64,000 nucleotides of DNA from contig CAIIXF020000007.1 of assembly GCA_903813345.2 (NCBI GenBank), positions 10,857,730 through 10,921,729 of the forward strand, read 5' to 3'. Below are positions 3,001-64,000 of this stretch, in pieces. A program made the position numbers and the translations under genes. Numbering within the stretch: position 1 is the first letter of the stretch; each line of letters starts with the position of its first letter. The notes under the pieces were generated by a model, which saw only the letters and a program-made list of their open reading frames with translations, was not told where the DNA came from and made no database searches. This DNA comes from Owenia fusiformis. Taxonomy: Eukaryota > Annelida > Polychaeta > Sabellida > Oweniidae.

Positions 3001-3217
3001 GGGTTTTATCACAAGCAGCGACGCTTTTAAAATCTGAGTCAATTGTATTTAAGTAATTCACATTACTTGGGTACAACCAGTGCTCCTGGATGACGCATAT
3101 ATCAGTTTGCTGTAGTATATTACACAAGTATGGGGTGCTATACATAACCCCTTGTACGTTCCATGATAGAAGTCTAATTGTCATTATTAAAGATATAAAT
3201 GTAAGATTTATTCCCAT
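1..3217 (-). pseudogene. LINE ORF2: endonuclease-reverse transcriptase with one frameshift
   Basis: Frame one runs from 3217 to a TAG at 2695-2693. It begins the endonuclease with LLSWNVQGV, QEHWL and GDFNGH. The -1 frame takes over between 2726 and 2693 and is then open for every codon down to position 3, checked line by line. It contains SLIDFIM, then SNHCPI where the family usually has SDH, the RT motif NKAPGYD (about 1700-1755), FLDNRMAFD (1317-1343) in place of the usual FLDxSKAFD, and VADD (1029-1040) in place of YADD. The catalytic RT aspartates are present. At the left edge a C-x2-C pair (KCLACK) suggests the start of a C-terminal zinc knuckle. A one-base deletion near 2700-2720 explains the break. 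The role is target-primed reverse transcription; this copy would need frame correction or trans-supply. Confidence 0.88.
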
Positions 3218-4773
3218 GAATTATCTTGTTCAGTATTGCTCTTATAGTTTGGAATCCATTCTTTACAAAGTACACCATCTGGCCAAAAATGTTGGTCATC
3301 TAATACAGAATGGCTATGCTGTGCAAGTACATTGATCCGTAATGAATATGAATGAGTAAGGCCAAAGTTTGAAGTATACGTTTTAAGGAGACGGACGAAT
3401 GTAATTGTCACACCCTTGCTAAGGGCGAAAGATTGAATTTTCTTACTAAGATCACCAAATGGCAATTTGGATCGAAGACGCGATACGAATAAGCGCTTTA
3501 TATTTTGCCGTCTGTTACGTGGGCGTTGATATCCCGAGAATCCAATGTCGTCTTCATCTTCGTCATCGTTATTAGTAACAGCTGCGTTATTAAATTCTTG
3601 CCTGTATGAAGTTACAACAGGAATAGTATTCACCTTAGTTGTGGCTGCTAGGCAAAAGGAATGTTCACAGGGTGAGGAGGGTATCCGTTTACCTTCACTT
3701 GTAGTAGGTGTTGTCCTTACACGGTTAGACGAGTCAGGTTTGGCCATATTGTCACCTCTTTCCTTAGTCGTATCTGCATTGACCGGTGACTGCTTGGCAG
3801 AGCTGTTAGTCGTTTTTTGCTGAGGAGATGACGACATACTGTTATGGTCACTTGGGGAAGTGCATATGTCAGGTACTGGACTCGTGGGATCAGTAGCGTC
3901 CATTGTTTCATGTTGGTTAGCAGCTGATACAAACCGTTTACGAGAATAAGTATCCTTAAGTTCATTAACATTCTTGTGGACAGTTCCGACTTTTCCTTCA
4001 AGAGCATTTAGTCGTTGTTTAACATCATTTTCATAACTTTGCATTTTGGATTTAAATTCAGAGACTTCGTGTTCTCTTTCTTTTAACAGTAATTTAACAT
4101 GTTTTAGCTCATTTTTGGCTTTTGCCTCACAGTCTCTGATTGTTTGTTCACTTTGTTTGTATTGCTTAATTTGTTTTTGTAGGTCTTTAATTTCAGCATT
4201 TTGTAGCTCGAGGGTTTGGGATATTTCAGCGCATGTTCCTTTAATTGTAAATATATAAGACATCATGGTCTCCATCATTGAGAAGTGGGTTGACGTAGTC
4301 GGTTGACTATGTTGATTGATTGAATCAGGGTCGCAAACATCATCATTTGAAATAAATGATCTAGCGAAGCGTGACGTATGTTCATTGTCAACTATTGGAG
4401 TTTTCGTAAATATTGACATGAGGTCTGCAACACTATTGCCTTCTGTGAATTGATAAAGTGCGTAGCAATCACTTGCAAGTTTGCTTTTGCGATCTTCACT
4501 CCGTCCACCTTTCCTTGCTATCAGCTTGAATTTAGGTGTTTCAGAGCGTTCCATTCGTGCTCTGATGAGTAGATAATCCCTGAAACCATCTATAGATAGA
4601 TTACTGTGCTCACACAACGACAACAGTCTTTCAATATACACATCTTTCGGCAGTTCCTGCAACGTTTCAAAAAGTTTATCCCATGTACGTTGTGCACTTG
4701 GGATCTGGCTTTGGGTTTCATCTTCACCAGCGCTCGAGTCAGAATATTCATGGTCATTGTTACTACATGCCAT
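3208..4773 (-). CDS. LINE ORF1 protein (coiled coil plus RRM-like C-terminus)
   Basis: Uninterrupted ORF of 521 codons upstream of the endonuclease/RT frame. The N-terminal part (about residues 25-145) looks helical and charged. Residues about 165-285 form a long heptad-like coiled coil rich in Lys, Glu and Gln (for example LELQNAEIKDLQKQIKQYKQ), typical of ORF1 trimerisation. A Ser/Thr/Pro-rich linker follows (about 290-400), with an acidic DDEDEDD stretch. The last 100 residues contain RLFVSRLRSKLPFGDLSKKI and end near HFWPDGVLCKEW, the pattern of the RRM-like domain found in ORF1 of many invertebrate LINEs. The expected job is to bind the element RNA as a chaperone. The family assignment rests on layout and pattern, not on a search. 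Confidence 0.85.
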   Translation of the reverse strand: MACSNNDHEYSDSSAGEDETQSQIPSAQRTWDKLFETLQELPKDVYIERLLSLCEHSNLSIDGFRDYLLIRARMERSETPKFKLIARKGGRSEDRKSKLASDCYALYQFTEGNSVADLMSIFTKTPIVDNEHTSRFARSFISNDDVCDPDSINQHSQPTTSTHFSMMETMMSYIFTIKGTCAEISQTLELQNAEIKDLQKQIKQYKQSEQTIRDCEAKAKNELKHVKLLLKEREHEVSEFKSKMQSYENDVKQRLNALEGKVGTVHKNVNELKDTYSRKRFVSAANQHETMDATDPTSPVPDICTSPSDHNSMSSSPQQKTTNSSAKQSPVNADTTKERGDNMAKPDSSNRVRTTPTTSEGKRIPSSPCEHSFCLAATTKVNTIPVVTSYRQEFNNAAVTNNDDEDEDDIGFSGYQRPRNRRQNIKRLFVSRLRSKLPFGDLSKKIQSFALSKGVTITFVRLLKTYTSNFGLTHSYSLRINVLAQHSHSVLDDQHFWPDGVLCKEWIPNYKSNTEQDNSWE

Positions 4774-5299
4774 CTTTCCAGCATTTATCTAGATTTATCT
4801 AAATTCAATTGAAAGAGGGCAGTACTGGGCTTACACCGTTCCATTCCATTTCAGCAACGCATTGAGCTACTCAGGCCGATGTGACCTCGGGTATTGTTTT
4901 AATCAGCGAAAATGATCAAAATAGCTATATAATAGTCTATTCCACTGGCCACTGTGATTTTTTCCGTAACTGATCTTTAGTAAGTAAGTAAATGTGGTTA
5001 GCCTACTAAATAGTTAGGAATGGCGTTTGAATGTAGAGAATCAGTTCAAAGGATTTATGTAAAAGTGTTTTACCGTTTTTCCCGTCGGCCAATGTACACT
5101 AATATATATCCAAAATGATCTCGCAACTGTCCGATTTGATTGTGCCCGAAGCTCCAAATCCTAGTTTGATCTAAATAAGCACAATTCCATATTTAATTCC
5201 AAATCTCTGCAGCAAAAATATAAACATGCCACGGTCACGCATGCGCACTTCGTGGTATCTTATTACTTTGACAAATTATGTGTGATGTGATTTTCTTAC
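4774..5299. other. LINE 5' region and intron of the WDR49-like gene
   Basis: No coding sequence seen. The part next to 4773 is probably the LINE 5' untranslated region; its true end and any target-site duplication could not be fixed. The remainder is intron, ending with the donor (minus strand GTAAG, 5299-5295) of the exon at 5300. Confidence 0.4.
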
Positions 5300-44575: not shown

Positions 44576-45357
44576 AAGGGATTCTGATAACATTAGAGTG
44601 AGTGGAATATCACAACTAGAAAAAATGGTTGAGGTTTTGAGGGCTTCAGATCTCAGGAGGCACAAGTTTTACTGTACTATCTTTTAGCACCAAATAACAT
44701 CCAGACGTACTGAAAATCAAAAAGTATTTTGGAATGTACTTTTAAGAGACTAATGTTCTCCCCATCTAATATTGGTTTATATAGAGTATGCAAAATATAT
44801 TTGTCAGATTCTCTTGGTGTCATAATGTCATATTTAATTGCTATATGTATCACATGTAGATGCGTCAGATGAATATTCAACAAAAGAATACAATGATGGA
44901 ACATGCAAGTGTTTATCAAGCCACAGGGTAAACAAGAAAAACAACAACTGTGTTCAGCTCATGTTGACCTCATATTTTGTAGTATATCATGTTGCAAGTG
45001 ATACAATTTTTGTTGCTTGTTAAAACTGAAGATTTAAATACCATAAGGCATGAATCTATTCTCACATGGAATTGATATACAGTATTGTCAATATACCAGT
45101 TACAAGCTGTATATACAATCAAGATTTAATTGGTTTTACATACTGCTAATCATATTCTACAGTCTTTACAAATTTTTCATGAAGTCTCAGCTGGGTACAA
45201 AAATTTTCATCTGGGTGAAAAACAATTTTTTTATTCTCTACTAGGTACTTAGAACCAGTTATCTCAATGCTTAATCACTGTACATGTCTCCCATAATTTG
45301 GTATATTTGTTTATGATAGATTAACTAAAGATGATAAAAACTATTATGTATTTTCAG

Positions 45358-45407
45358 ATAGAACTTTATTACTCCCGACCCCTGGTAGTACCCCCTAAAC
45401 AATAAAG
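45358..45407 (+). other. Talin 5' untranslated part of the ATG exon
   Basis: A strong acceptor, gtattttcag, ends at 45,357 and the sequence to the ATG contains an in-frame TAA at 45,396-45,398. This shows that translation starts at 45,408 and that at least one noncoding exon lies upstream. Confidence 0.65.
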
Positions 45408-48400
45408 ATGGCGCTGTCACTGAAGGTGGGCATTGTTGCTGCGGGGATCACAAAGACGATGCAGTTTGAGGCATCCATGATCGTCTATGATGCCTGCAGA
45501 ATCATACGTGAGAGAATAATGGAAGCAAATGAAGGAAATGGTAAGGATCCATTTGAGATCAAAGCTAGAGATGTGTGATAGAATAGTTTTTGTGCTACCT
45601 GGAGTGATACAGTACATCTACATGTGTAGTAAATCCACCCACCTTCAATTTATAAGAAGGTTCCAAATTGCACCAAATTGTCTATTTTCTAATGTGATTT
45701 AACATTCCACTGTTTTTGTACATTAAACACCTGTCCTAAAGGTGTAGTCTTGCATCGAGTCTCTTGTTCTCTCAGTGTGTATTTTCTTAACTGGGTATCA
45801 TTGTTTAATGAGAGAGACTAAAATACTACAAGGCTACACCTGATGTAAAATGATGAGGTACAGTAGTCTGGTTCCCCCAACATCCATTTCTTAAACAAGG
45901 AGATAGAAAATGGGGGGGGGGTTGCTAGGGACATGCTTGAAGACCTCGTGTAATACAGGGATGAATCTTGCAATGAAGACTTTTATATATTTTCCCCAAC
46001 ATGATGAACTGATGCAGGGTTTATATAAAGGACTTATATATCAAATAATAGGGTCTCTCTAGATATAACCAAATCATTATTCATAGCTTTATAATTATTA
46101 ACCAATATCTCTAATTCTCTGTGAAACCATCTCACTTTCAAGTCTTTGGAAATTGATGAAGACTTTTAGGAGATTGTCCCTTAAAATAAATAATAAATTT
46201 TCAATGATATAATTCCAGCCACAGACTTTGGATTATTCTTGGCAGATGAGGACCCTAAGAAAGGAGTCTGGTTAGAACCTGGCCGAACTCTGGAATATTA
46301 TCTTCTTAGGAGTGGGGTAGGTGTTTATGTTACTACAAGTTTGTAGGGCTATGTTTCTCAGGGGATTTCTCATATTATAGCATTAATTGATAGGATCTGT
46401 ATGGGGGGATTTCTCAGATGTTTTGGTCATCTTTCCTGATCAATCCATATAAGATTGTATATTATTTATTTGCATCTACTGTACTTGAAAATTAGTAAAA
46501 GGAATTATTGACGTATTCTAAACAATCTTTCGTAGAACTTTTTGTTTTAGAATTTTCAGAGCTAAAAAGTAGATAGATAGACATGAAAAAATGTTATATT
46601 TAGACCAACTCTTGGTAGAAGTGCAAATTAAAAGCAATTGCACTGACTTTCAAAAAGATCCAGATAAGGGAAGCTATTTTAGTGGAATGAAACTGGAGAG
46701 TCAATGGATTGTAAGTCAGTGGATTATTAGGAAGAGTTAATTCTTCAGCAACCAGCTTGAGATGATGAATGAAGATTTGTGAAATCTACACTGATGTAAT
46801 TCATATATAAATGTAAAAATAGATGGCAGTGTAGTCATTAATCAGAGTGCAGTTAATACATTAAGTTTAATCTCAAAAATCCTTGTCTGAAGTACCAGGT
46901 TAAAAGGCCTTCTGGACTCCCATATAAACACAACCTCAAGGCTCCACCCATAGAGCACATAGACCAAAGAGTCCCCTCTCATAAGTCGAATCATAATATT
47001 GAAAAAGGGCCCCGTAGGTTGAAATACTATGAGAGATTGCTGTCTGTTTGCTGGTCAGTTCATTCAATGGTTTAAATGATTAATTCAATCAACTGTGACT
47101 GCTTTATAGCTTCAAATTTTCCTCAAATAAGCCATAATACTAATACATTGTACCTCAAAAATCGCACTGATTCCCATGGCATATTTTACTCATTTTGGTT
47201 TCTAAATCAATATAATTTATAATATTTTGATTTTTCCTTTGTTAGATGTTTTATAACTGATTCATTATAATATTGTATAATTTATAATTGTGTATGACCA
47301 CTGTATGTGTAAGGGCAGTTTGTACCATACCACATAAATCTGTCTCGTAATTGAAGTAAAAGATTCAGAATTAGTTGAGTGGAATTCATTGGATTGATCC
47401 ACAATACATCGGCTTAGAATTGTTGATTGTAGCGATCAAATGAAATGAATAGTTCTCTGATACCCTAAATCATGTGAAATGGCATAAATCGCTATTTCTT
47501 TTCATGCATGGTATGTCAGGTCATGTTGGATTTCTGTAATTAGACTTGTAGTTTGTTCTTGGTCAGATATGATGTGATATGATTAGGAGCACTTGTTTTT
47601 CTGTAGGGCAGTGGCATGTCCTTATTTAGTTATTAACTTCGATATAAGCTTAATAAAAATTCATCATTAAAAATGATGGAATTTGCATAGATTTTACCAG
47701 GCCAAAATTATGATTTTTTGGTTGTATATTTCTAGTTTTAGTACAATGTGAGTGTGTTCCTTTCATATACCAAATCATTTACAAAAACATACTGAAAATA
47801 TGCATATGCATAGAACCGATTTAATAGAGAATTAAAAGCTCTCTAAAGTGCTCATTATTTCATTTGTACGAAATATTGATGGATTCTCGAGCTGAGTCAA
47901 TATTACCTAATTCTATTGTCCAAGTGCTGTATTGAATTTCATTTAGAGAAAGAGCTGTTGGCCAAATATTCTATATGAATGGGTGAAAATTGATCTGCTA
48001 CCTGAGACATACAGGTGCCTTCTAGCTTAATAGCCGCTACTTGTGAGATCTTTATAATCTCAAATGTACCTTACAAGGCCCTTTCTGGCAGTTTGAATAT
48101 TGCAGGAATGCTAGGTACTTGTGTACATAAAATGTAGTGTCATACTTTTCAGATTGAATATTCTGGATGTAGGCAAGATCAGAGAATTACCTCTAATTTG
48201 AAGAGTCAAGATGCCCCAAGCTCTTGAGAAGGGTTTGCCTTTGAACTAAAGTAGTCTCTAAACCATGGAAGAGTAAATCAATTGTCATCAATTCAATCAT
48301 TTGAGATAAGTTACTTTGATGGCTGTTCAAAGCTTTTTATTCATGGATGTCATTAAAGCTGATAGACTGGGTCAAAATATATATGTCTTGTGAAAGTAAT

Positions 48401-51400
48401 ATACAAACACTGACACCCTCTCCCTGTTCATTACTCCAACATCAATATTTTATTTGACCACATAATTTTAGAGAGTTAATGTTGGATCAAGGAGATTTTC
48501 CAAACCAAGATATCCTTCATGAACTTGAAAATTTTTATATTTTGATGAGAAATGGTATAACATATATGAATGATGTAAAATGTAATTGAATTGAATTAAG
48601 TTTATGTTTTGTGTTTTATTTAAAAACAGACAGACAGACGGACGAACAGATAAGTTGGTGACTACAAGCTCACAACATATGAGCTTAAAATGTCTTAGAG
48701 CATGAAAGATTTATATAAGGCATAAGGATTTTAGGAGGGTTTACTATATATATATATATATATGATATATGATATAATTAAATGCGATAATGTTCTATAA
48801 TCCTGCTGAACAAGCTTCAAAATAAACATCCCATTCTTCAGTATAGCCCTTAAAATTCCTTTGGGTTAAGCACGTTTAATGGATCAAATACACTTGCTGT
48901 ATAATGTAATATTGAATGAATTCTTGTTCTAAAGACAGTACCATTGACAATTTCTGAATTCAGTTTAGTTGTTTGAATACTGAATAGCTACAAATCACAT
49001 CTTAGGATGTGAATACATGTACGTACTCTGATTTGGGAAAGGTTTAGTTGTGTTATTATGTGACATTTATTCTATCATCATATACCCCTTAAACAGTTAC
49101 TTTTATTTTACCTTTTGTGTTGTAGTTGATAATGTTTCAGAAATTTTTGATTTTGATTACAAGCTCCTTGATAGAGTATGAAATATGGGTCATTTTGCTT
49201 AAAAATATTTGTCTAAAAATCAAGAATTTAAGAATACAAGTTGAAAGATTCCTTCCAGTACTTAGACTATAATTAGTTGCATTTTAGAGAAAATAAATCA
49301 ATACTACATTCATATTATTGTATATGCTAGATGAAAACAAGAAAATGTGAAAAAGTAGAAATTTCTTTATTTATTTTAGATTATTTTATTATTAGTATGT
49401 AACTATTATACAAGAAAATCATCAAATCCGATATCATATTGATGTCCTGAAGATTATTTTATTTGATCCAGTATATGCCAGACTGTTGATATATTGGAAA
49501 TATTATGACAATGGCAAAACTGTGTAGATTTTATTGACAGTTTTATTGAAGTACTCTGAAGTTTGTGCAAGTGTTTCATTCAAGCCAATATCAAATAAAC
49601 AATCTAACACTGACTGACCAAGTTTGTGAAAATATCTGAGAAAATGTCAACGGGAAACATGACACTTGACGGAGGCGATCGTTGTATGAAAGTGTCACAT
49701 TGTTAAGAACCTGCTCCCATGCTTTTGAGAGAGTACATCTTGGAAATATAATGGATTTTTGATGTAGGGATATACTCTCACCTAGTATTGGATATCATAT
49801 TTTAGGACTTCAAAGAGGATTTGTGTCTAATGTCAACACTAGGAGAGTATATTATATAAAGTTTATTATAAAACAAATTTGAACTTAGTTGCAGATCTGT
49901 ATCAGGTATATTCTATTGAAATTCTAAGATTGGAGCAAGTAAGGACACTTTTCCAGGTTTGAACAAATGTAATCACTGTTGCTGAGTCAGCTTATGATGG
50001 GCGTATAAAGGAACAACATTTTGAAGAATTTTGGAGAGTGCAGAATTTGTGAATGAAATAAGAATTGAAGCATAGTTTATCTTAAATTAATATCGTCAGC
50101 ATTTCCAAAGTTGGATTAGTTGTACTGAGAATGATGCCATTGTGTTTAAATGATTTCTTAATCTCATTGGTCATAATCTGTCATGTGACCTCCACAAGTA
50201 TTCTTGGAACCAAACTTTCTTTTGATTATAACTAGTGCCAAAATGAATTGTACTGTGAATTTGATTGGATGGCATTTATAAAATGGAATAAGAATTTAAT
50301 GAATTGGCAATCTCTTTGAAGTCAGACAATTCCAGAATTGAAAAGTCAAAAATCAGGAATAAATGGCTAAACTATCTTGGGGTCATCAAGGATAGACTTC
50401 TCTTTGTAATTGGATGTGAGCTTATTAAGCCAAATAAAAATTACACCAAGTGATAAAGACAGAAAATCTAATGAAAACTGGTGATTTAATATGTCTCCAA
50501 ACAAATGGACCATTAGATGTAGAATGAGTAAATTATGTTGAAAATGAGAAAGAGGAAGTGTATATTAATTACAAACAAGATCAGCACTGCAATAAACAAA
50601 CATGGCATTTCATGTCTCAAAATTACTGACTTTTCGTAAGATTTTGTCGGAAGTTAATCAACTTTTATTTCAAACATTTTTTGATTCTTTCTACATGAGC
50701 TGGAGGATGAGGGTTGCATACCTTGAGGGTATATGTGAGTTCTCTAAAAGATTTTCTGATTCGACAAAGCAAAACTGGTTTTCAAAGTTTATTCAGAAGT
50801 TTGTTCTGTAGGAAAGAGATACTGATGTGTATGTTATAAAGAATAGATAGCAAGTCAAGGAATCTTCTCATGATGCAGAGTCTATGGCAGAGCAAACTAC
50901 TAAAATAAGCAAATAGCAAAGATTGATAGAGCTAGAGAATACAAATGCATATACATATGTAGATCTATACATGTGTGACATATATACAGAAAACGAGTGT
51001 CAACGTTTGATATCAGTATAATACGAACTTTGTAAACAAAAAGAATATCATATTTACATTGAGGATTGATTGACGTATCAACAATGCATCACCTGAGAAT
51101 CTACATAGTTCATGTACAGGTGTGTAATAATGATTGATGCTTCACAAGACTAACATCAAAATAAATGAGAAATCAGAGACAATCACTGACAACTCCAGGA
51201 AGAAATGAGGCTTATAAAAAGATGAGTTTGATTCTGATGTCAGATTGACCCTTATATACTACCTGTTATGTAAAACTTGTGTAGTGAGACTGGATCAGAT
51301 ATAACCGAATGTTCTTGTGCAGTCTATCCAGATCAAAATCGTAACTCAACGTTATTTTCAGATTGAGTTCTGATTTAAATTGTTAGGCAATTTGCTGTGA

Positions 51401-54400
51401 AACCCAGTAAATGGGAAGAACATAAGAGCACTTTGTACCATCTGTATAATGCCTGGATGCTTAATTAGAGGTGGGAACCCTTTCTATACAAAACTAATTT
51501 TTCAATCTTCAAATAACTCCGAGATAAAATCAATGAACATGTGATATTAATTTGGATCAGTTAAACTGTAATTTCCAAGTATTTTGGTATTGGTGAGAAT
51601 TTAGATGTAAATCGTTGATGATATTTATATTGATATTTAAGTGAAGTACAAGAGAAGTTTTACTGGAATTTGTAACTTTCTGGTTGAATTCTCCTTCAAG
51701 TATGTGATGTAATGTGAATATAGCACTCGAAATATCCCTCCTTGAATCCACTCCCTTCTGTGGTGCATCTACTGCAGGTGTACAAATGAAGAACAAAGTG
51801 TTAAACCTTTCATTTGTATTGATTGAATAATGGATTTTACCTGTAATTGGCTATTAAAAGCAACTGAGATCGTGATATGATGTAGTTTCTTCAGATTGAA
51901 TCAATTGGAAATTTTGAAACAATTCATTATGGCATCTAGTAGCTTAGATTTCCTCAGACCTTCCAAAGAAAGAAAACCAGAAAAAGGAAAAAAATCAACA
52001 AGGCGGAAACATATTGACGAGACCAGACATGGTGTTAATGTAAAGCAAATGCCAGACAATAAGTGTGGGGCAAATAGTAAGGAACTCATTTCAGGTATTG
52101 GAATTCAAAGAGCAACAGGGATTGCAATAAAACCAGTGATAAACAATAATGTTTCCAAGAATGAATGTGCAAATAAGGAACTAAATCATGTGAGGAATAT
52201 CTATCAACCTCAAAGAACCCCATCCTTCTTAAGGACTCAATCTTTTGAACATACTCATAAGGCATCAATCATCCCAAAGGCATCGCATCATAGGAAAAGT
52301 CAGAGTTTGAATCTGCAAGTGGTCAAAGCTCAACAGAGAAGATCTAGGGATCCAAATGATCCATGGTTCACACATGATGAGTTAATAGCCCAAAGTCTGT
52401 TGAGCTATAAACAAACGATTGATCAACTTCATGATAAAATGACTAAACGCAAAAGCGATGATGTGTCCATACACTATAAAATTGCTGTTAATGATTCTAA
52501 TAACCCATCAAATAGTAAAGAACAGACCCAGTCATCATCCACAAGCTCTCCCTTGGTACCATTCAAACTAAAACAAGATACAGGAGAGAAAGAAACACCC
52601 ATGCATCGATTAAATGGCCATATTCCTGGAGAACAGATTTCCAGTAAAGATGAAATAGAGGCAATATCACCAGTTGAGGATACATCAACTATTGATGATG
52701 ACAATAATACACTGATTGATACAATTGCACAATCCAGTGTATATACACAGACTGTCAGTAACAGGGACATACAGAGCATAAGTGATAACATCATATCCCC
52801 TCCTGTCTCTCCCAAGTACAGATCAACTCCAAACCATTCCAAATTACGCTCATTAGACAAAACAAAGCTCCAAGATCTTTCTAACAGTTTCTCCATACCA
52901 CCTAACATGCAGGATTTGGATTTAGACAGTACATTAGATTTTAGATACCCAAATAGATATGACGTTGAAGAACAATTCAATGATGACCATCCATCTTACG
53001 CAAGAAATGATGAGATGGCAGCTGTGTATGATACAGGAGTTAAAGAATGTGAGTTGTCAACCTTTGAGAGAGGGTTGGTATCTACTAGCAGAGCTACTCT
53101 AACATACCAGTCTGACCTTGTACAGATTGGCCTTGACCTAATGAAGCTGTTCTGTATGAGAAAGGTAGGTACATGTAGTCTATATGTACCAACAACCAAG
53201 GGTTCTATTGTTATTAGATAATTGAAGGAACTAGATGAATTCATGTACTTGAATATATGGTTCATATGTTAGATGAAAAGGAATCATTATGAGAATGGGT
53301 CAAGAATAAATCAGTTTTATTTCAAAATTGCATTGAGATTTTTAGCCATAGTTGAATGATTTAACTCCATACCACCTAACATTTTGATTTTTAAAAGCTT
53401 GATTCTCATAATTTTATCATTTTTTTGTATTTTCTATTTCTGACCTGGGTTGTCTTGGTGGTGTGCGTTACATTATATTAAGTTAATGTTCCCAATCACA
53501 AGTACATATCTACTAGAATTATCACAGAAAGCATCAACAAATGCTACATCAACGACATGAAAGATCATTCGATTCACTGCCTATGAGTTAACATCAATGC
53601 TACTATAGGTCCTAATTGTACATCAGACAAATGGAGACAACATATCAGAGGTCCAAATAAGGATTGTAGCTATAAGTGTGCGGTGAGCTACTGGAAGAAT
53701 GGATAATTATTACTAGATGCTTAACAACTATCATCTACCCATCTTAATTAGACCATTTGAAATGAGTTAATGAGGTACTTAATTGGCTTTTAATTTCTTT
53801 TCTATTTTATGTAGCAGTTATAAATGATAATTGTTCATATCCAATAAGAAATATAATTAGTTTTTCCTATGGCACGCAATAAGTACATTTTTAGTGAATG
53901 ATTTTTAATGAATGGTTCTCGCCCAATATTAATGTAGACGCTCTATTAGACAGTCAGAAACCTGTTCAGAGATGCCGTTGTACACTTAGATCTAGGCCAG
54001 GGATAAACCGCAGAGAAACATTGATATCTTTCTGTCAGTTAGGGCTTAACATTTGCCGATTGTGATATTAATTTTTGGCTGGGATTTGCAGGACAAGGCC
54101 GTAACAGGGGTCTGGTAGGACTGAATTAGATGGGATATCGATATGCGATACATTTATCATGCAGTTCCCTGAATAAAAAATTTACAAACCTAACAGATAT
54201 TCAAATTATTCATGAAGGAATAACAAAACAATAATTATATCTTGAGCACAAATTAGTTCAAGGAGAACAATTCTAGGTTGATGTAAGAAATGTGTGAATT
54301 CTATGATTACATTGAAAGATGCTGCGAGGATGATGTGCCATTATTTCAATTGCTCCATTCAGGACTTGTTACTTTCTGGCTCTATGGGGAATTAGACAGT

Positions 54401-57400
54401 CATTTACCAATGTAGCCTTTATTCACTTCTAAATTACAAGTGAAGGGGTGATTATTGTTTCTATTGCGGACACTATGGCAAGAGAAGATAGTATTGTGTA
54501 AAATGAAACAACAATGGATGTAGGGTTTCTAAGTTTGGATTTAATAATAGTAATTTGGTAACTGCATACTATTCGGTAAGTGCTTAGTTTTTGTAATATT
54601 TATTTGTTGATTTTTAAAATAGTTTGTGTAAAGATTAATTTTAAGAAAATCTTAAAATATACAATTTAAGAATTTATAGCCAACAATAGAAGGATTAGAT
54701 AACTACAACATTCATATGAGATAAATCCTACGTTCTTTTGATATGCAGTTGTTTAGTTTTTAAATTCTTTTTACAAAGCACATTGGGGCACCTATAAATA
54801 GTATAATGGCAGAATTGTGGTTGGAAGGCTTTTTAAGGTGGGATGACTTGTATTTGCGTGATATTAACTCCTGAGGTCTGGTGTTATGCTCATTAGTTTT
54901 ATTCAATATTTTGTGATAAGTGTAATATGGTAGACATTACTTGTATAAAGAAAATCTTGCGCGTAGAACAAAACATGTGAATGCTCACAGCTACTCAGGT
55001 GGCATAGCTGTATTTATCAAAGATAATCTATATGGATCGTTTATTGAGATCTTACCCCAATCTCATGATTTTTTTGTCTGGATTAAATTAAACTCAAATG
55101 CTTACAGTATCACACAAGACATCTTTATTTGTTTTGTTTATTTACCATTTAAAGGTTCAGCATTTGATAATATTTTAGGAACAAGTAATTTAGATATTCT
55201 TGAAAATTCTATTGCTCATTACCAGAATCTTGGTAAGACAATGATCTGTGGAGATTTCAATGCTCGCACAGCGGAACTAACAGATTGTCATATGAATATT
55301 TTTGGTTCCAACGGGGAATTACCTGTAACAGAACATGTACAAGAGGCTGAAATCAATGTAAATATACCAAAAAGGGTGTCTATGGATAAGAATGTAACTG
55401 CTGTAAATCAAACTCATGGTCATGAACTTCTTACTTTATGTAAGTCTTCAGGAATGCAGATATTAAATGGTCGACTTCATCAAGATAAAGATATGGGCAA
55501 ATTTACATTTTATCGTTATTTACAAGATGACATTAATAACCCCAATCGTGGGAAATCAGTCGTTGATTATGTTATTTCACAACCAAGTTTACTTCCTTTC
55601 ATAAAAGATTTTAAAGTACATGATAAAAGAGTTGATTCAGATCACGCCCCATTACATTTCATTTTAGATATTCAGAAAAATTCACCTACCGATGTTGAAC
55701 AAGGTTCACCAAGCACTTGCTTTCAAAAAATTCCATTTTCTTTTTTCAAATGGGACAGTGATAAAAAGATTGACTTCAAAGCTAAATTAACAGACAAAAT
55801 TAGCAAAACTTTACTTGAAAATTTCTTTGTATTTTTAGGTGATTCATCTCAGAATTCAAATGACTTAACTGATGCAATCTTAGCCCCAATCAATTATGCA
55901 GCTGTAGAAACATTTAAAATTAAAAAATTATCTAAACGAAAATCTAAATTTCCTGTTAACGGATGGTTTACGGATGAGTGTAAAGAATTGAAAAAGAAAG
56001 TCCATATGGCAATTAAGCAAAATAAAGGAGATGAAGAAATATCAGAATTAACTAAGCAATATAATCAAGTCAGACAAAGAGAAAAAAGAAATTTTAAGTC
56101 AAATCTTTTAAACGAACTAGTACTAAATATGTCTAAATGTCCTACCGAGTTTTGGAAGATGCTGCATGCCATTCCCGGAAATTCAACTCATGACATACCT
56201 ATTTCTCCTCATGTATTATTTTCAGCATTTAAAGATTTAGCTGTACCTCCGCAGATTGATTATTTTAATGAAAATTTCTTTGAAAAAATGCAAACATTTA
56301 TTCATGATTCTGAGAACATATCCTTAGATGAACCAATAGATTTATTAAGTGACATTATTATAAATGGTCCTATTCAAATCTCTGAAGTTTGTATGGCTTT
56401 AAAACGTATCAATTCTAATCGATCACCAGGTATAGATGGCATACCTTCGGATATTATCAAAAATTCCGAAAGTCTTATTGTGCCCTTTACAGCACTCTTT
56501 AACGCCATCTTTGACAAAGGGGATTATCCAGATAAATGGAGCATTGGAATGCTTTCACCATTATTTAAGCAAGGAAGTCGATTCTCTCCAGATAATTATA
56601 GAGGAATAAATGTGCTCGCAACTCTTGGAAATGTTTTTGACTCTGTTATTCAACATAGACTAGTTTTCAATGCAGAAATGAGCAACTCACAAGACCCTTT
56701 TCAAGGAGCTTATAAACATGACCGGCGAACTACGGATAACATCTTTATTTTAAGGTCTCTAATAAATAAATTCAATCGACAGAAGAAAACACTCTATACA
56801 TGCATGATTGATTTTAGAAAAGCTTTTGACTATATTGATAGAACAGTCCTCTTTTATAAACTTTGCAAGTTTGGTATACTCCCAAAAACTAAAATGTTCA
56901 AAATTATTGAAAGTATGTATGAAAAATCTAAATCTTGTCTTAAGCTGCAAGATGGTATATCATCATGCTTTAATACAGATATCGGTGTAATGCAAGGAAG
57001 TGTATTGAGTACATTCTTGTTTAATCACTTTATCGATGATCTGAGAAACAATCTGCCTTCAAACTCTGGAGTAAAACTTGAAAATACTTTTATAAACCAT
57101 CTTCTGTGGGCGGACGACCTTGTACTAATATCTAACTCAAGAAAAGGACTCCAAGAACAGCTTGATGCACTATTTAAATATTGTACAGAATACCGTTTAA
57201 TTGTGAACACAGTTAAAACCAAAGCTCTGCTTTTTAATTCAAAGAATAAAGACCATGAACCTTTTATGTTTAATAATCAAAAAATTGAACAAGTCAATGA
57301 ATATAAATATCTTGGTTGTGTCTTAAGTCATAATAACAAGTTTGATAAAAATTCCAACCATTTGAAAGAACAATCAAGAAAAGCCTATTTCAAGATAAAA

Positions 57401-60400
57401 CAACAATACAATAAATTTAATGATATCCCGGTTAGTATCGCTTTGCATTTGTTCGATACACTTATTCTGCCGATTCTAAATTATGGTTCTGAGATATGGC
57501 TAGATCATAAACAAATGAAGACAATTGAAACAATCCATCTTAAGTTTTTAAAATCTGTTTTATGTGTAAAACCTCAGACATCAACACATGCAGTTTATGG
57601 TGATTTAGGCCGTTATCCATTGTATATAAAATTTGAGATACAACTATTAAAATATTGGATTAGACTCCTAAGACTATGCCCAAATAATATATTATCTGAA
57701 ACATATAAATATGAGCTTGAGTTACACAATCTTGGGTTTCCCTCATGGGCATCCAGAGTTTTTAAAATACTGGAAAAATGTGACATGTTAGAATACTGGG
57801 ACAATCAGGAAATACCTGATGAGAAAATATTTTTAAAGGATGTAAATAGCACTTTGATGAGACAGTATCGTGCCGATTGGCAAAATGCTATTTTGTGTGC
57901 ACCTATACTTAGAACATATTGTAAATATAAAACTAAATTTGAATGTGAATCATATTTAAAGTTAGACAATAGAAAGTATAGGCATTGTATTGCAAGATTT
58001 AGACTAAGTTCACACCAGTTGCATATTGAGACTGGGAGGCATTGTAAACCTGCCCCTAAACCTCTAAATGAGAGAAAATGTTCAACATGTAATTCTATTG
58101 AAGATGAAGAACACTTTCTCACAAGATGTAAAAAATATGTAACTCTTAGAGAATGTTTGTTTTCGAAATTAAAAGAAATTATTCCAAGTTTTGATTGTGA
58201 TGACCCAGATATTTTTAAAAGGTTAATGGCTACTGAACACTTGAATGTTCAATTATACATTGGAAAATTTATATATCATGGATTCAAAATTTAAGTGTAT
58301 ATGTTTAATAGTGTGCATCACACTGTATAATAATTATTATTTGTAGTTAGAATAGTTGTAGTCGTAGTTTGTAGTGTTTTAGTGACTAATGTATCATGTT
58401 ACTGATATAAATTGTCAATAAAAGATATAATAAAAAATGGGCCACTTCAATGTTTAAGCATATCAAAATATATTTTGAAACATTAGTGATGTCACTAAGG
58501 TAACAAAAATTTTTTGATGTCAATCTTTTCTAAATATGCCAGACTTTCATAAAAAAACAATGTTGATTGTCTAACCAGGTTAAAAGGAAGAATAAATTAT
58601 GTTTTAGATATCATTGTACCATTGGTTTCTATGAGAACTATAATTTTGAAATGCATTTTTCTCAGAACCATTTTCATGCACTGATAAGTTCATTTCTCGC
58701 TTGTTTATCAACCGATTTTCTTAATTTTTTCGGCAAAAAACATGGGAGGATGAATGCTATGCATTGGTATGAATTGTGGCTAATTAGAAGATATAAGTGA
58801 CCTCTAAAAGTTGGTTTTAAATAAATTCACAAATTTTGGAACAAAAAGTCTATCAAAAACCACTTTTTGAAATTTAAAAAAAAAGTTTCACATATCACAC
58901 TTTGATAACAATGGGTAAGACTACAATATAAGCCAAAGTGGTTTAAACTTTACATGGGGCCTTTAAGGATTGAATTAAGTACTTAATAGATGTGATATAT
59001 GTGCAATATATTGCTAATTTAGTATTTTTGTGTTTAATATTGTGGACACCATTGGTAAATGTAAGAGGATATTATCATGAAATTACCAGTGGATTGAATT
59101 TGCGGATTTTGCATGATATTGACTTCAATTCTTCCTCTGGGATTGACCAAAAGTGCATGTTCTTATTCTGACTTAATGTGTTCACTGATATATTTGACGT
59201 AGGAGTCAATCAGTATCTCAAAAGTGGGTCTGAGTTTTTTTCTTTCAGTGCATTCAAGTTAGAGAGATGTGTACATATTTTGCATTAATTCAGAAGGTCA
59301 TATTGATCAGAAAAAATCATTGTAAGAATCATTAAAATAATTAAAGAAATCATTTTTGACATGAGGAAAATGATCTCATTTCACTTTCTTTGGCTTAGGA
59401 GTTCAAATGGCTTTCCAATTGAGGGTAAGATTGACCAGTACAAGTAGATAAGTCAGCATTTGAGGTAATTACATTTAGTTTCGATTTCTCTGAAGTCTGG
59501 TTGAGCTTTAATAGATATTCAATAGTCTAGAAAATTGTGCCAGAATCCACCGACAGACAGAAATATTTCGCACTGAGAAATAGCTTGGATTATTTATTGG
59601 CCGTTATTCCTGGTATGGCTCATTATTCAATGAAGCCTATAAAATAAAATGTTTTCTAGAAATAGCCATTCATGTTTCAAAAAATGCTTTACGGAGTAGC
59701 CATATATCTTAATTTACTCGTAAGTTAGTCTGTGTTTTAAGGCAGTCACTTAGTAAATGAAAGAAGCAATCAAATTAGTCAGTTATGTAATGAAGAAGTA
59801 AAAGGAAAACTGTGAAGTATGATTGTTTAATAGTGGCTGCTTTAACACTGCTACGAAGCTTGTTTTATCTATTTTAAGTGTTATTTTCTTCCTCATTTCA
59901 TACCTTGAGAATTCAAGATGAGTACCTGGGATATTTTTAACTGCATCTTACAGTTAAAGACCTATCAAAGTCATATAAAGTATAACCAGTATATAGACTA
60001 AGAACACCAAAATTGGTTCTTGATGACAAATTCCTTATAGAGAGGATTCATTGAAATATAGTTTAATGGAGCTTAATGGAACCTTTTAATCTAGATTTCA
60101 ATTTTTGTTTTTAATTTCAATAGTTTTTAACGTTCAGTTGTTAATAACCAAGATATTCCATGTGTTGCAGGACTTATTGGAATACAAGAAGAAACACCGT
60201 ATCTTGAGAGTCAGAACACTCGATGGCATCGTCAAAACTTTACAAGTGGACGACAGTTTCACAGTATCACAACTCATGGTTCCTATATGCACACGATTGG
60301 GTAAGAATTTCAATATTTAATGACTGAAATTCAGATTTTATATCATATTTATAGAACACAATTTTGAGATTTAAGACATTGCAGTATATATTTTAAAGTC

Positions 60401-63400
60401 TACTTCACAGCCCCAAGGCATATCTTAATTTTAGGGGACCCCTTGATTCATTAGCCTATGTTTTCCAGGACTGCTTCAGCAGGGAAAACAGACTATTATT
60501 CTCACATAACTTGAAAAATTTTCTACTGAATTATGATTGCCTATTGGTTTATGGTTCTACAGAAGAGACATCAAATGTAATGATCAATAAAAACATTTTA
60601 TCAATCATCTCAAAGTTTTTGTTGTCATGGAAACTTGATCTACAAAGTACCGTAAGACTTGTCTCCTGAGACCTTAAGAGAATGTTGAACCTCTCACCCA
60701 ATTTCTTGATTTCTCAAATGTTTCACTTCATTCTCAAAAGAAAATCTCAACAATAGAACCATATTTATGACACATGAGTAGAATTTGCGTTTTAAAAGTT
60801 TTTATAGTTTGATATTTATATGTTGAACTTATACATACATTTTGAAATTGAGCATTTCAATGTTTGCAGTTATTTTACATTTCATTTACAAAATTGAAAA
60901 TTTGCTGTTATTTTACATCTCCTGTGAAAAACTCTTGATTAAAGATATGTTTCTCAGAACTTATTGATCAGCCTTGTACATTATGATATACTTGATCTTA
61001 TGTCTGGATGAAGATTCTTGTCTGAGTTTGTCTGTTGCAGTTCAGGGATGCCTATAATTCCCCTTGTAATGTTTCCGCCTATTGATGTGCTTGAGATTGC
61101 GATCATAGATGAGGAACATTGATAATCATTTCAATCATTTATACGCTTCAAATTAGTGGCTCCTCTGGGGAGGATAGTTCATACAATTGTGGCCCAGAAC
61201 GATCTATTTCTGTATATTACAAATATGATTAGTCAATTATGGCATTTTGATGGGTTATGTTACATTGTTTTATCTGGTAATGCAATAGTATTTATGTTCA
61301 TGCAATTCCCCGATTGTCCAATACAGATATTTCATACTTTGCTTTGTGTGAACTTTTTCTGTCCTGTCTTGGGTCTTTGGGCAATGTCCCCCCCCCCAAG
61401 ATGAAATTCTCATTTTCACAATTGTGAAAAAATGTGACATTTTAAGACTTTTCTCATTTTCAAGTAGATGGAAGTAGAGGGTTTCAAGCAGTGCTATTTC
61501 AGAATTCTCTAATGAGTACAATGTCTTCTTGCTTCAATGCTAGGGGTACCATGGGGTTTATATGGATCTAAAATAAAATGTACACTTAACACATTAGCCT
61601 ATACCAAAGCTGAGAATATTTATGAACTATATAAAGTCTAACAGTCTTTGACAGCTTAAGAAATAACCCTTGGCAATGTATGTAGATCTATGAATTTGTA
61701 CAATTACAACATTAACAAGTAATAATTTCTCGACTGTTTAGGGATCACAAACCATGATGAGTACTCACTTGTATATGATTTGCGTGATGAAGACAAGGAA
61801 AAAACACTGACGTTAAAACGTGACAAATCTCTGGCCAAAGATCAGAAGAAACTGGATGAGATGAAGAGGAAACTTCACACAGATGATGAATGTAAGTCTT
61901 TTAGTCATGAATATTTCATTTTGCAAGTTGTACAATTATTCAGGGACTTGTCCTGAACAAGGATTTGTAAATTTCGTATCCTAGCCAAAAAAACAAAAAA
62001 CCAAAAAAATCCTAGCCAAAAAAACCAATTTATTCTTTCATTCAAGACATTATTTTCAGAAAATGAGCTCTAGTTTAGGCAATACCTTTGAAAAAGAAAA
62101 TAACCAATGAAATGATTAGCTCTTCCAATATGAGCCATTTATTTGGGCAAAGAATTACTGCGATGACTAAATATCTCATTCTTTAGTAAGATTTTCGTCG
62201 AGTGTTATACATGATCACCGATGGCATTTATATCACCCAATAAAAATAATGTATTTGCCACCTATGAAAACCAGAGCTGCGAGATTCAACAAACAAAACA
62301 CAAATGTACAAAAACTAATTAAACTTTTGACATTATTCCTCTTGCTCATTTTATAGAGTCAATTATAGATTTTGAGCATTGAGAATCCCCTCAGGACCCG
62401 CTCTGTGTTTTACAGACAAGCTATGAAACATAGAAAAATGCAAGTTGAAACCATGTCGAGACTTCATTTCTTAAGTGCAATAATGATTCATCTTTTTCTC
62501 GCAGTCAATTTAACGGCGAGACCATATTCCATTTATGACGTTTTTAGCAATTGGATTTTGTCGTTCATTTGTTTTTGGTGCCGTACTAGCTATTAATTAA
62601 ATTAGATTCTTTGAACACGTATATATTTTATTTGACAACCACAATGTTCTCCAGTGAACCAGAAAATTGTTTGATAGTATCAGAATGTAAGGAGATGCTC
62701 AATCAATTGATATTAAACCTAACTCTTGATTCCGAAATTACAACAGACTTCACTTGACTTTATGTGGCAGAATTAATTTCCTTTCAACAATTTTTTTGAT
62801 TGTTTGATGTGTGACCATCAAAAAACTATAGATTAATATATTATATATTGATATAATTTATTAAAATATTTCATTTGGAAAAAAAGCTGTTTTGCAAATC
62901 AATTGTTTTTTGGCTCATGTGATATAGACAATATAGGAAAAAGAATTAATTGATGTATGACATTAGGGGACCTTCTGAAATTAGTTTTTGAAAAAATTAA
63001 CTTTTTAAATTGCCCCAATTTGAATCATTTGAGGATGATTAATACATTTTTAACACCAGTCGTATACTTAAGGATAATGCAATAACATGATATATGATTG
63101 CACCTTCAAGTTTATATTGTTTGGCATCTATTGATTATATCAGTATTAGCAAAATAGAAAGTCAGTCTGAAACATGTACAGTAAAACCTGTGTTAGTGAA
63201 ACTCCTTTGGTACCTCAAAAAATGTTCCATGAAGGGTGTTCCATTAACTGAGGTTGATTTTACATGAAGTTCCTAACTGGTCCACTTATTGCGGTGTTCC
63301 GCTTCCAGAGGTGTTCCTTTTTACAGGTTTTGCTGGGATTTCACATGCATTTCCAACTTGTTAAAAGGATATCCCTAAAACTTTATAATATCACATGCGT

Positions 63401-64000
63401 ACCATTTAATAACTGCTTTTTACTTTCAGTGAACTGGTTAGACCATTCTAAGACTTTACGTCAACAGGGAATAGATGAAAATGAAACATTGCTTCTGCGA
63501 CGGAAGTTTTTCTTCTCAGATCAAAACGTGGATGCCCGGGACCCTGTGCAATTGAATCTTTTATATGTTCAGGTGAGATACATGAAACTAATCTGAGAAC
63601 AGTATAATTACGAGGTATTTAGGATGCAAATGAAACATTTTAGAATCAATAATTAGAAAAGAAATGAAATATTATGACTTGGTATTGCCTTGTTATATGC
63701 AGTCTGTATATATAGTATATTTTATAGTTGAAGTGATGCATTAAGCCCTTTATGCCATCTCCATAAAAGATACATCATATGTTGGAGTAGAAAAATGATG
63801 GAGATAGTAAGGCAGGGAGTGTAAAGGCAAGTGTCCCTCAGGGACTAGATCATCCTCTGACAGCAGGGCTCCAAGATTCAGAATATCTTCTTTCTCTTTG
63901 AGGAACAAGTTCTGTAGCCCTGTGTTAGGAGAATTAGTTTAGATGAAATACATGTTTATTTACTGGATTCTTCTGTTGTATTATAGATGAGAGATGCAAT
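45408..64000 (+). CDS. TLN: Talin, N-terminal FERM head (F0-F1; gene continues right)
   Basis: Coding exons: 45408-45540, 46219-46316, 60171-60300, 61742-61891, 63430-63572 and 63987 onward. Phases fit throughout. The start MALSLKVGIVAAGITKTMQF with VYDACRIIRERI is the talin F0 signature. DFGLFLADEDPKKGVWLEPG follows in exon 2. Exon 3 (LLEYKKKHRILRVRTLDG) starts F1, exon 4 has ITNHDEYSLV and the basic F1 insert (KRDKSLAKDQKKLDEMKRK), exon 5 has LNWLDHSKTLRQQGIDENET and DARDPVQLNLLYVQ, and exon 6 starts MRDAI. Talin couples integrin tails to actin; F0 binds Rap1-type GTPases and the F1 insert helps membrane contact. About 222 of roughly 2,500 residues are here. ATG context is AAGATGG. Intron 2 is 13.9 kb and hosts another exon-like frame and a LINE, both in sense. 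Confidence 0.95.
45541..46218. other. Talin intron 1 (between coding exons)
   Basis: Donor GTAAGG and acceptor aattccag. Contains a nine-G run near 45,914. Nothing else recognised. Confidence 0.8.
46317..51845. other. Talin intron 2, first part
   Basis: AT-rich intron, donor GTAGGT. A short (TA)n microsatellite lies at 48,745-48,763. No exon found in this part. Confidence 0.6.
51846..51895 (+). promoter_or_regulatory. Possible internal promoter in talin intron 2
   Basis: attgg (inverted CCAAT, 51,846-51,850) is followed directly by TATTAAAAG (51,852-51,860). A start site about 30 bases on would leave a leader of about 45 bases before the ATG at 51,929. A pyrimidine-rich tttcttcag also ends at 51,894, so a splice acceptor is an alternative explanation. 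Confidence 0.3.
51929..53164 (+). CDS. 412-codon disordered exon in talin intron 2, candidate alternative first exon
   Basis: Open from TGA (51,878-51,880). The first ATG (51,929) has A at -3 and G at +4, giving MASSSLDFLRPSKERKPEKG. The N-terminus is Lys/Arg-rich (KGKKSTRRKH). Repeated RxxS motifs follow (QRTPSFLRTQSF, HRKSQSLNL), then DPNDPWFTHDELIAQSLLSY, a helical-looking segment, a long acidic Ser/Thr stretch, Ser-Pro sites (SPPVSPKYRSTP) and a C-terminal LVQIGLDLMKLFCMRK. The frame runs only 18 codons past AAG|GTAGGT at 53,164, a good donor in phase 0. The acceptor of talin exon 3 (60,171) is also phase 0. Joining them would place 412 residues before residue 78 of talin and remove F0. 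If the ATG exon began at 51,895 and were spliced from talin exon 2, the frame would be wrong, so a cassette exon is unlikely. It could also belong to a separate nested gene. No known domain recognised. Confidence 0.6.
53165..54925. other. Talin intron 2, middle part
   Basis: AT-rich, no exon or structured repeat recognised before the LINE. Confidence 0.5.
54926..58438 (+). mobile_element. 5'-truncated LINE in talin intron 2, sense orientation
   Basis: The open frame begins just after TAA at 54,923-54,925 and already lies within the endonuclease domain, so the element is truncated at its 5' end. The 3' end is marked by aataaa at 58,417-58,422 and the A-rich gatataataaaaaatg. The exact 5' joint and a target duplication could not be determined. 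It differs clearly from the LINE at 1-4.8 kb. Confidence 0.85.
54941..58294 (+). CDS. LINE ORF2: endonuclease (truncated) and reverse transcriptase, open over about 1,117 codons
   Basis: There is no ATG at the start; the frame is an open remnant counted from a TTG. The endonuclease lacks roughly its first 60 residues (the Asn and Glu motifs) but keeps SGGIAVFIK (about 19-27), GDFNAR (104) and SDHAPL (233). The RT domain has RSPGIDGIPSDI (about 490), MIDFRKAFD (catalytic Asp 624), GVMQGSVLS and LLWADDLVLI (Asp pair 725-726). A C-x2-C-x7-H-x4-C zinc knuckle (C1047, C1050, H1058, C1063) lies near the C-terminus. All visible RT catalytic residues are intact and no stop interrupts 3.35 kb, which points to a recent insertion. 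The truncated endonuclease should prevent autonomous activity. Confidence 0.9.
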   Translation: MYKENLARRTKHVNAHSYSGGIAVFIKDNLYGSFIEILPQSHDFFVWIKLNSNAYSITQDIFICFVYLPFKGSAFDNILGTSNLDILENSIAHYQNLGKTMICGDFNARTAELTDCHMNIFGSNGELPVTEHVQEAEINVNIPKRVSMDKNVTAVNQTHGHELLTLCKSSGMQILNGRLHQDKDMGKFTFYRYLQDDINNPNRGKSVVDYVISQPSLLPFIKDFKVHDKRVDSDHAPLHFILDIQKNSPTDVEQGSPSTCFQKIPFSFFKWDSDKKIDFKAKLTDKISKTLLENFFVFLGDSSQNSNDLTDAILAPINYAAVETFKIKKLSKRKSKFPVNGWFTDECKELKKKVHMAIKQNKGDEEISELTKQYNQVRQREKRNFKSNLLNELVLNMSKCPTEFWKMLHAIPGNSTHDIPISPHVLFSAFKDLAVPPQIDYFNENFFEKMQTFIHDSENISLDEPIDLLSDIIINGPIQISEVCMALKRINSNRSPGIDGIPSDIIKNSESLIVPFTALFNAIFDKGDYPDKWSIGMLSPLFKQGSRFSPDNYRGINVLATLGNVFDSVIQHRLVFNAEMSNSQDPFQGAYKHDRRTTDNIFILRSLINKFNRQKKTLYTCMIDFRKAFDYIDRTVLFYKLCKFGILPKTKMFKIIESMYEKSKSCLKLQDGISSCFNTDIGVMQGSVLSTFLFNHFIDDLRNNLPSNSGVKLENTFINHLLWADDLVLISNSRKGLQEQLDALFKYCTEYRLIVNTVKTKALLFNSKNKDHEPFMFNNQKIEQVNEYKYLGCVLSHNNKFDKNSNHLKEQSRKAYFKIKQQYNKFNDIPVSIALHLFDTLILPILNYGSEIWLDHKQMKTIETIHLKFLKSVLCVKPQTSTHAVYGDLGRYPLYIKFEIQLLKYWIRLLRLCPNNILSETYKYELELHNLGFPSWASRVFKILEKCDMLEYWDNQEIPDEKIFLKDVNSTLMRQYRADWQNAILCAPILRTYCKYKTKFECESYLKLDNRKYRHCIARFRLSSHQLHIETGRHCKPAPKPLNERKCSTCNSIEDEEHFLTRCKKYVTLRECLFSKLKEIIPSFDCDDPDIFKRLMATEHLNVQLYIGKFIYHGFKI
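58439..60170. other. Talin intron 2, last part
   Basis: AT-rich. Ends with acceptor tgtgttgcag at 60,170. A 77-codon frame at 58,567-58,800 has no coding character. Confidence 0.6.
60301..61741. other. Talin intron 3
   Basis: Donor GTAAGA, acceptor actgtttag. Contains a run of nine Cs near 61,389. No exon or element recognised. Confidence 0.75.
61892..63429. other. Talin intron 4
   Basis: Donor GTAAGT, acceptor tactttcag. Holds a short acagtaaaacctg repeat (listed separately) and otherwise AT-rich sequence. Confidence 0.75.
63177..63338. repeat. ACAGTAAAACCTG-bounded repeat in talin intron 4
   Basis: tacagtaaaacctgtgttag at 63,177 and ttacaggttttgctg near 63,325-63,338 are inverted. The interior repeats phrases like ggtgttcc (gggtgttccatt, cggtgttccgct, aggtgttcctt). 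Same boundary box as 21,478-22,304. Confidence 0.6.
63573..63986. other. Talin intron 5
   Basis: Donor GTGAGA, acceptor gtattatag. No other feature recognised. Confidence 0.75.

Follow-up and report, generated by a model that had tools for sequence, protein, structure and literature searches.

A 412-codon open frame in intron 2 of the Owenia fusiformis talin gene as a candidate alternative first coding exon

The second intron of the talin gene of the annelid Owenia fusiformis contains a long open frame on the talin strand, which raises the question of whether this animal can make a talin with a second kind of N-terminus. The locus was analyzed in a window of 64,000 nucleotides (contig CAIIXF020000007.1, here C7, positions 10,857,730-10,921,729) taken from an assembly of 498 Mb in 525 contigs; unless marked otherwise, positions are counted from the first base of the window. 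An earlier model-made reading of the letters (the sequence-only reading) had proposed that a transcript starting inside the intron joins this frame to the F1 domain in place of F0, one of the two regions of the head of talin that bind Rap1. With moderate confidence, our analysis favours the frame as an alternative first coding exon that would be joined to talin exon 3, giving a talin that lacks most of F0 and keeps the arginine of the F1 Rap1 site. The elements on which the question turns are as follows.

51,929-53,164, plus strand: frame of 412 codons ending at AAG/GTAGGT in phase 0 (open reading frame, splice score, AlphaFold)
46,317-60,170, plus strand: talin intron 2, 13,854 bases by the exon model, the longest of the 36 modelled introns (the next has 3,195)

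The frame and its place in the talin gene

The open frame at 51,929-53,164 and the in-frame stop upstream of it (51,878-51,880), both pointed out by the sequence-only reading, are borne out. No stop interrupts the 446 codons of the stop-to-stop run 51,881-53,218, the 412 being counted from the first ATG at 51,929, and at the stop rate of the flanking intron (0.076 per codon) the chance of such a run is about 10^-15, or about 10^-11 over the 64 kb window. The start context is strong, as had been read, with A at -3 and G at +4. The content of G plus C by codon position is coding-like (0.44/0.38/0.32; talin 0.55/0.41/0.40), and that of the 16 codons preceding the ATG, a small sample, is not (0.19/0.19/0.38). 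Protein and DNA searches find the frame once in the assembly. Judged by its letters, it is very likely a real coding exon.

No significant match to the 412 residues was found in Pfam, NCBIfam or the PDB, and a match to ribosomal S13 (E 0.018-0.028, below the cut-offs) was taken as chance. Searches of viral_contigs and of the prokaryote collection genome_contigs gave two and ten pattern matches, respectively, none of them confirmed as a relative, and a viral or bacterial origin was set aside. An origin as a transposon or retrocopy was rejected as well, the frame being single copy with no parent found in the assembly, as was an origin by duplication of the F0 exons, for which FERM_f0 gave no match to the frame and the comparison was otherwise made by eye only. 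The lack of relatives in the organism's own assembly and in these families, structures and collections would suit a decaying or formerly coding exon, open by chance or through recent loss and no longer expressed. Apart from the own assembly, the collections searched apparently consist of sequences other than animal genomes, so the missing relatives say little; the 446 stop-free codons and the intact start context and donor further make this explanation very improbable.

The encoded protein is rich in serine and threonine (18.7% together), has seven serine-proline or threonine-proline sites, and carries a net charge of +16 over residues 1-150 and of -13 over the remainder. AlphaFold, run on the single sequence with no alignment, gives a mean predicted local distance difference test score of 43.7, with 340 of the 412 residues below 50, and places helices at residues 149-175 and 312-318 and in three pieces within 360-410. 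This low-confidence model suggests a mostly disordered protein with helical stretches.

The exons of the host gene were located by tblastn with a human TLN1 query sequence over the window and the next 60 kb. Among 47 rows, 41 ordered stretches were kept and six were dropped because they were weak, were secondary matches or came from the first of two copies of an exon; junctions were modelled for 36 of the 40 neighbouring pairs, the other four, with more than 15 human residues between them, being skipped. The exons of the F1-F3 head and of the helical rod follow downstream in order. The first five coding exons are these.

45,358-45,540, plus strand: talin exon with the canonical ATG at 45,408 and the first half of F0 (tblastn, FERM_f0, acceptor and donor scores); acceptor in the 5' untranslated region at 45,357/45,358
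46,219-46,316, plus strand: talin exon 2, second half of F0, with donor GGG/GTAGGT in phase 0 (tblastn, FERM_f0, splice scores)
60,171-60,300, plus strand: talin exon 3, last F0 residues and then F1 with the equivalent of R118; phase-0 acceptor (tblastn)
61,742-61,891, plus strand: talin exon 4, F1 (tblastn, exon model)
63,430-63,572, plus strand: talin exon 5, F1/F2 (tblastn, exon model)

A search of the genome with Pfam FERM_f0 gave two matches (four candidates scored), and since both fall on the first two of these exons, a single talin gene is seen in the assembly. One talin gene is also what PMC6032930 states for invertebrates. At about four times the length of any other modelled talin intron, intron 2 was counted as a point for an alternative first exon. 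Rfam gave no match at gathering thresholds in 45,000-61,000.

Candidate splice partners at the two ends of the exon

Splice sites were scored with matrices built from 35 talin introns, intron 2 excluded; consensus letters were given a mild bonus in the choice of the training sites, which are therefore somewhat idealised. The phase-0 donor AAG/GTAGGT at 53,164 stands as the sequence-only reading had it: its score of 11.1 ranks first among the 716 GTs in 46,320-60,160, the 35 talin donors having a lower quartile of 8.0, a median of 8.7 and an upper quartile of 11.2, with 7.2 for the donor of exon 2. The exon model likewise agrees that the talin acceptor at 60,171 is in phase 0, and the modelled join from 53,164 to 60,171 is open onward through exons 4 and 5. 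A start codon that follows an in-frame stop thus opens onto a donor in phase with exon 3. Use as a cassette following exon 2 was rejected: that join runs into a stop after 14 codons, so the frame needs a start codon of its own, as in a first exon. Three further features of the intron bear on where the donor could lead.

53,165-53,221, plus strand: run-on of the frame past an unused donor, 18 codons followed by a stop (open reading frame); AATAAA at 53,305
54,950-58,415, plus strand: 5'-truncated long interspersed nuclear element (LINE), apparently a recent copy, with a reverse transcriptase frame to 58,294 (RVT_1, E 1e-25); 3' limit approximate
58,415-58,976, no strand given: high-copy repeat of about 555 bases (genome search, best 40 of 2,401 first-look candidates scored)

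The first 151 bases of the LINE are matched at four other places in the genome with 96-100% identity and, since the identity is 100% at two of them, its insertion is probably recent. Elsewhere in the window, two adjoining minus-strand frames of 175 and 526 codons at 2,696-4,788 also look like a LINE; the first matches Exo_endo_phos (E 2e-11) and the second only weak coiled-coil models.

Acceptors downstream of the donor were examined in 53,200-54,949 and 58,977-60,175, that is, outside the LINE and the repeat. Of these, 24 score at least 3; 60,138 and 60,171 both reach exon 3, and none of the remaining 22 opens more than 38 codons in phase 0. The reading as a first coding exon is best supported because the phase matches, the donor outscores all others in the intron, the search up to exon 3 outside repeats found no further coding exon of appreciable size, and the frame cannot serve as a cassette following exon 2. 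Several observations weigh against it. The exon 3 acceptor scores 6.0, below those at 59,249 (8.4), 54,092 (7.2) and 54,277 (6.3), and the acceptor with the highest score in the intron (12.9) is located inside the LINE, outside the count just given. The phase match is weak evidence because phase 0 is the commonest in this gene (27 of the 36 modelled junctions, that of intron 2 included). The synonymous codon score of the frame, -0.019 per codon, is not clearly talin-like: 500 random windows have a mean of -0.051, a standard deviation of 0.027 and a maximum of 0.030, talin reaches 0.106 on its own training set, and the LINE frame gives -0.098. As a coding test in this genome, synonymous codon use is too weak to decide. 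Short terminal exons in the intron are possible on sequence grounds, and nested genes seem to occur in this gene, since another of its introns contains an unrelated antisense frame that has relatives at other genomic places.

The last points, with the acceptor scores, bear on the reading that the frame belongs to a separate gene nested on the same strand in the talin intron, either with a short terminal exon (for example after 54,092, 59,249 or 59,531) or unspliced with its stop at 53,221. The acceptors at 59,249 and 54,092, which outscore that of exon 3, open 28 and 8 codons, the one at 59,531 (5.0) opens 38, and AATAAA occurs at 53,305, 54,172 and 59,643. Against these stand the length of the tail, which adds no more than 38 codons from acceptors of at least 3 outside repeats, and the 13 occurrences of AATAAA in 53,165-60,170, which make that signal little informative; in its unspliced form, such a gene would offer no explanation for the top-scoring donor of the intron. 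We consider a nested gene unlikely, though it is a serious competitor to joining with exon 3.

For the 5' end of the proposed first coding exon, the element to be considered is slightly longer than the frame.

51,895-53,164, plus strand: candidate alternative first coding exon via the acceptor at 51,894/51,895, with a 34-base leader free of ATG and then the 412-codon frame

The sequence-only reading had noted a CCAAT/TATA-like sequence ahead of the frame. This signal is weak: ATTGG (51,846-51,850) and TATTAAAA (51,852-51,859) are separated by one base, and such letters are common in intron 2, where ATTGG occurs 24 times, TAT[AT]AA 36 times and TATTAAA three times. Judged from these letters, they need not be a promoter. 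Between them and the ATG lies the acceptor TTTCTTCAG/ATTG at 51,894/51,895, whose score of 6.1 is 23rd among the 840 AGs of the intron; the runner-up AG in 51,500-52,000 scores 2.6. A putative upstream leader may well be spliced to the exon here. Of the claimed transcript starting inside the intron, the first part, a first coding exon, is thus supported, and the second, the internal promoter, is doubtful because a splice acceptor stands 34 bases ahead of the ATG.

One form of the favoured reading would do without any internal promoter: transcription from the canonical promoter would produce a shared non-coding leader that is spliced either to 45,358 or to 51,895. The canonical start exon is arranged in this way too, with its acceptor at 45,358 (score 8.4) 50 bases ahead of its ATG; within 51,500-52,000 no AG scores higher than that at 51,895, and the CCAAT/TATA match is unremarkable. 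Acceptors of at least 6.1 occur about once per 600 bases in intron 2 (23 of 840 AGs), however, which gives a chance of about 8% of finding one in the interval from the upstream stop to the ATG; we regard the shared leader as a tentative possibility. In the mechanism proposed here, transcription would start just upstream of the exon or, with about the same likelihood, at a leader farther upstream that is spliced from its donor to 51,895; translation would begin at 51,929, and we infer that the donor at 53,164 is joined to exon 3 at 60,171.

The talin gene beyond the window

Downstream of the window the gene contains a second long open run attached to a talin exon.

L005:3496-4413 (C7:10,935,225-10,936,142), same frame as talin: exon of the R3 region reading through its donor AAG/GTTAGT, with 261 extra codons to a stop at L005:4,411-4,413

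The exon proper (C7:10,935,225-10,935,356) matches Pfam Talin_VBS2 with E 7.5e-14. The chance of a 261-codon open run is about 10^-9, and the only other place in the genome found for the read-through tail has E 0.39. The tail is rich in proline (17%) and serine, with 19 serine-proline or threonine-proline sites, and A[AT]TAAA occurs shortly past its stop, at L005 4,538 and 4,595. The tail resembles an alternative 3' end for talin, although splicing from an internal donor (L005 3,951, score 6.7, phase 0) would make an in-frame insertion of it instead. The read-through exon supports the idea that this gene adds disordered parts to its talins, and it was counted in favour of the first-exon reading. 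BLASTP of the 412 residues against the tail gives a best E of 0.03, around the letters PPVSP. The 412-residue head has one copy of the motif TQT, the core of dynein LC8 sites (shuffle P 0.095); the tail has two (shuffle P 0.0006). If transcripts ran from the 412-codon exon to the read-through exon (C7:10,935,225-10,936,139), their product would lack most of F0 and most of the rod: the disordered head would be followed by F1-F2-F3, the first helices of the rod and the proline-rich tail. We consider the existence of such transcripts improbable; if they were made, such a head-only talin would activate integrins and would not bear force to actin via the rod.

In the talin intron before the read-through exon, a frame of 365 codons lies antisense to talin (L005:1374-2468, minus strand), with hydrophobic stretches recognized by eye. 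It has no Pfam match, and the genome search finds three weaker relatives on contigs C1 and C11. It is probably an unrelated nested gene, and for that reason the nested-gene reading of the 412-codon frame stays alive. Farther along, two neighbouring talin stretches, L006:8914-9045 and L006:9155-9283, both match human residues 2077-2120 (57% and 70%), the first having the weaker splice sites; these may be tandem-duplicated rod exons, possibly used in a mutually exclusive way.

Predicted product, Rap1 sites and known talin isoforms

If the frame is joined to exon 3, the product would carry the 412-residue, mostly disordered head in place of the first 77 talin residues, followed by the last F0 residues, F1, F2, F3 and the rod. 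Exon 3 had been said to open exactly at the F0/F1 junction. It starts at residue 78 of this talin, and residue 85 is where the alignment of the F0 structure 2kc1 ends and that of the F1 structure 2kc2 begins, so the exon begins about eight residues inside F0 and retains its last residues, presumably the last strand of the F0 fold.

According to PMC5701058, Rap1b is contacted in mammals by the F0 residues K15 and R35, and mutating both impairs integrin activation. Both residues are conserved in the canonical talin exons here and would be lost from the product together with the F0 fold. A second Rap1 site at R118 of F1 is described as more central than F0 in PMC9198492. Its equivalent (numbering counted on the human query sequence) is conserved and encoded in exon 3. 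The claim of an isoform without the Rap1-binding F0 accordingly applies to K15 and R35 and fails to reach F1; because the R118 arginine is encoded in exon 3, Rap1 binding would not be wholly lost. Rap1 control would be altered, not necessarily abolished, in the predicted isoform. With the F1 arginine and the integrin-binding head kept, the product would be an integrin activator recruited differently, perhaps via phosphorylation of its head.

Variation within talin genes is documented elsewhere. Mammalian TLN2 produces short transcripts in testis and kidney (Debrand et al. 2009, PMC2702505), and that paper describes alternative first exons within the gene, one testis form having a unique 30-residue N-terminus from exon 25c. 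Unlike those short forms, the form predicted here would exchange only the first 77 residues, for 412 new ones, and keep the integrin-binding head. In Ciona, a single invertebrate gene gives functionally different talins, talin-a and talin-b, by alternative splicing; there, the variation concerns the C-terminal I/LWEQ module (PMC1702346). Exon 17b of TLN1 is likewise a previously unannotated coding exon in a talin gene, but PMC9997659 presents it as a cassette that alters the mechanosensitivity of talin-1, with no replacement of the N-terminus. No F0-replaced talin isoform is described among the matches listed, which cover titles and the beginnings of abstracts in open-licence literature; one may still be in print.

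If the favoured reading is true, a talin whose F0 is exchanged for a disordered head rich in serine and threonine, with the F1 Rap1 site kept, would be a natural experiment on the role of F0, and an invertebrate with a single talin gene would diversify the head of the protein as well as, in Ciona, its C-terminus.

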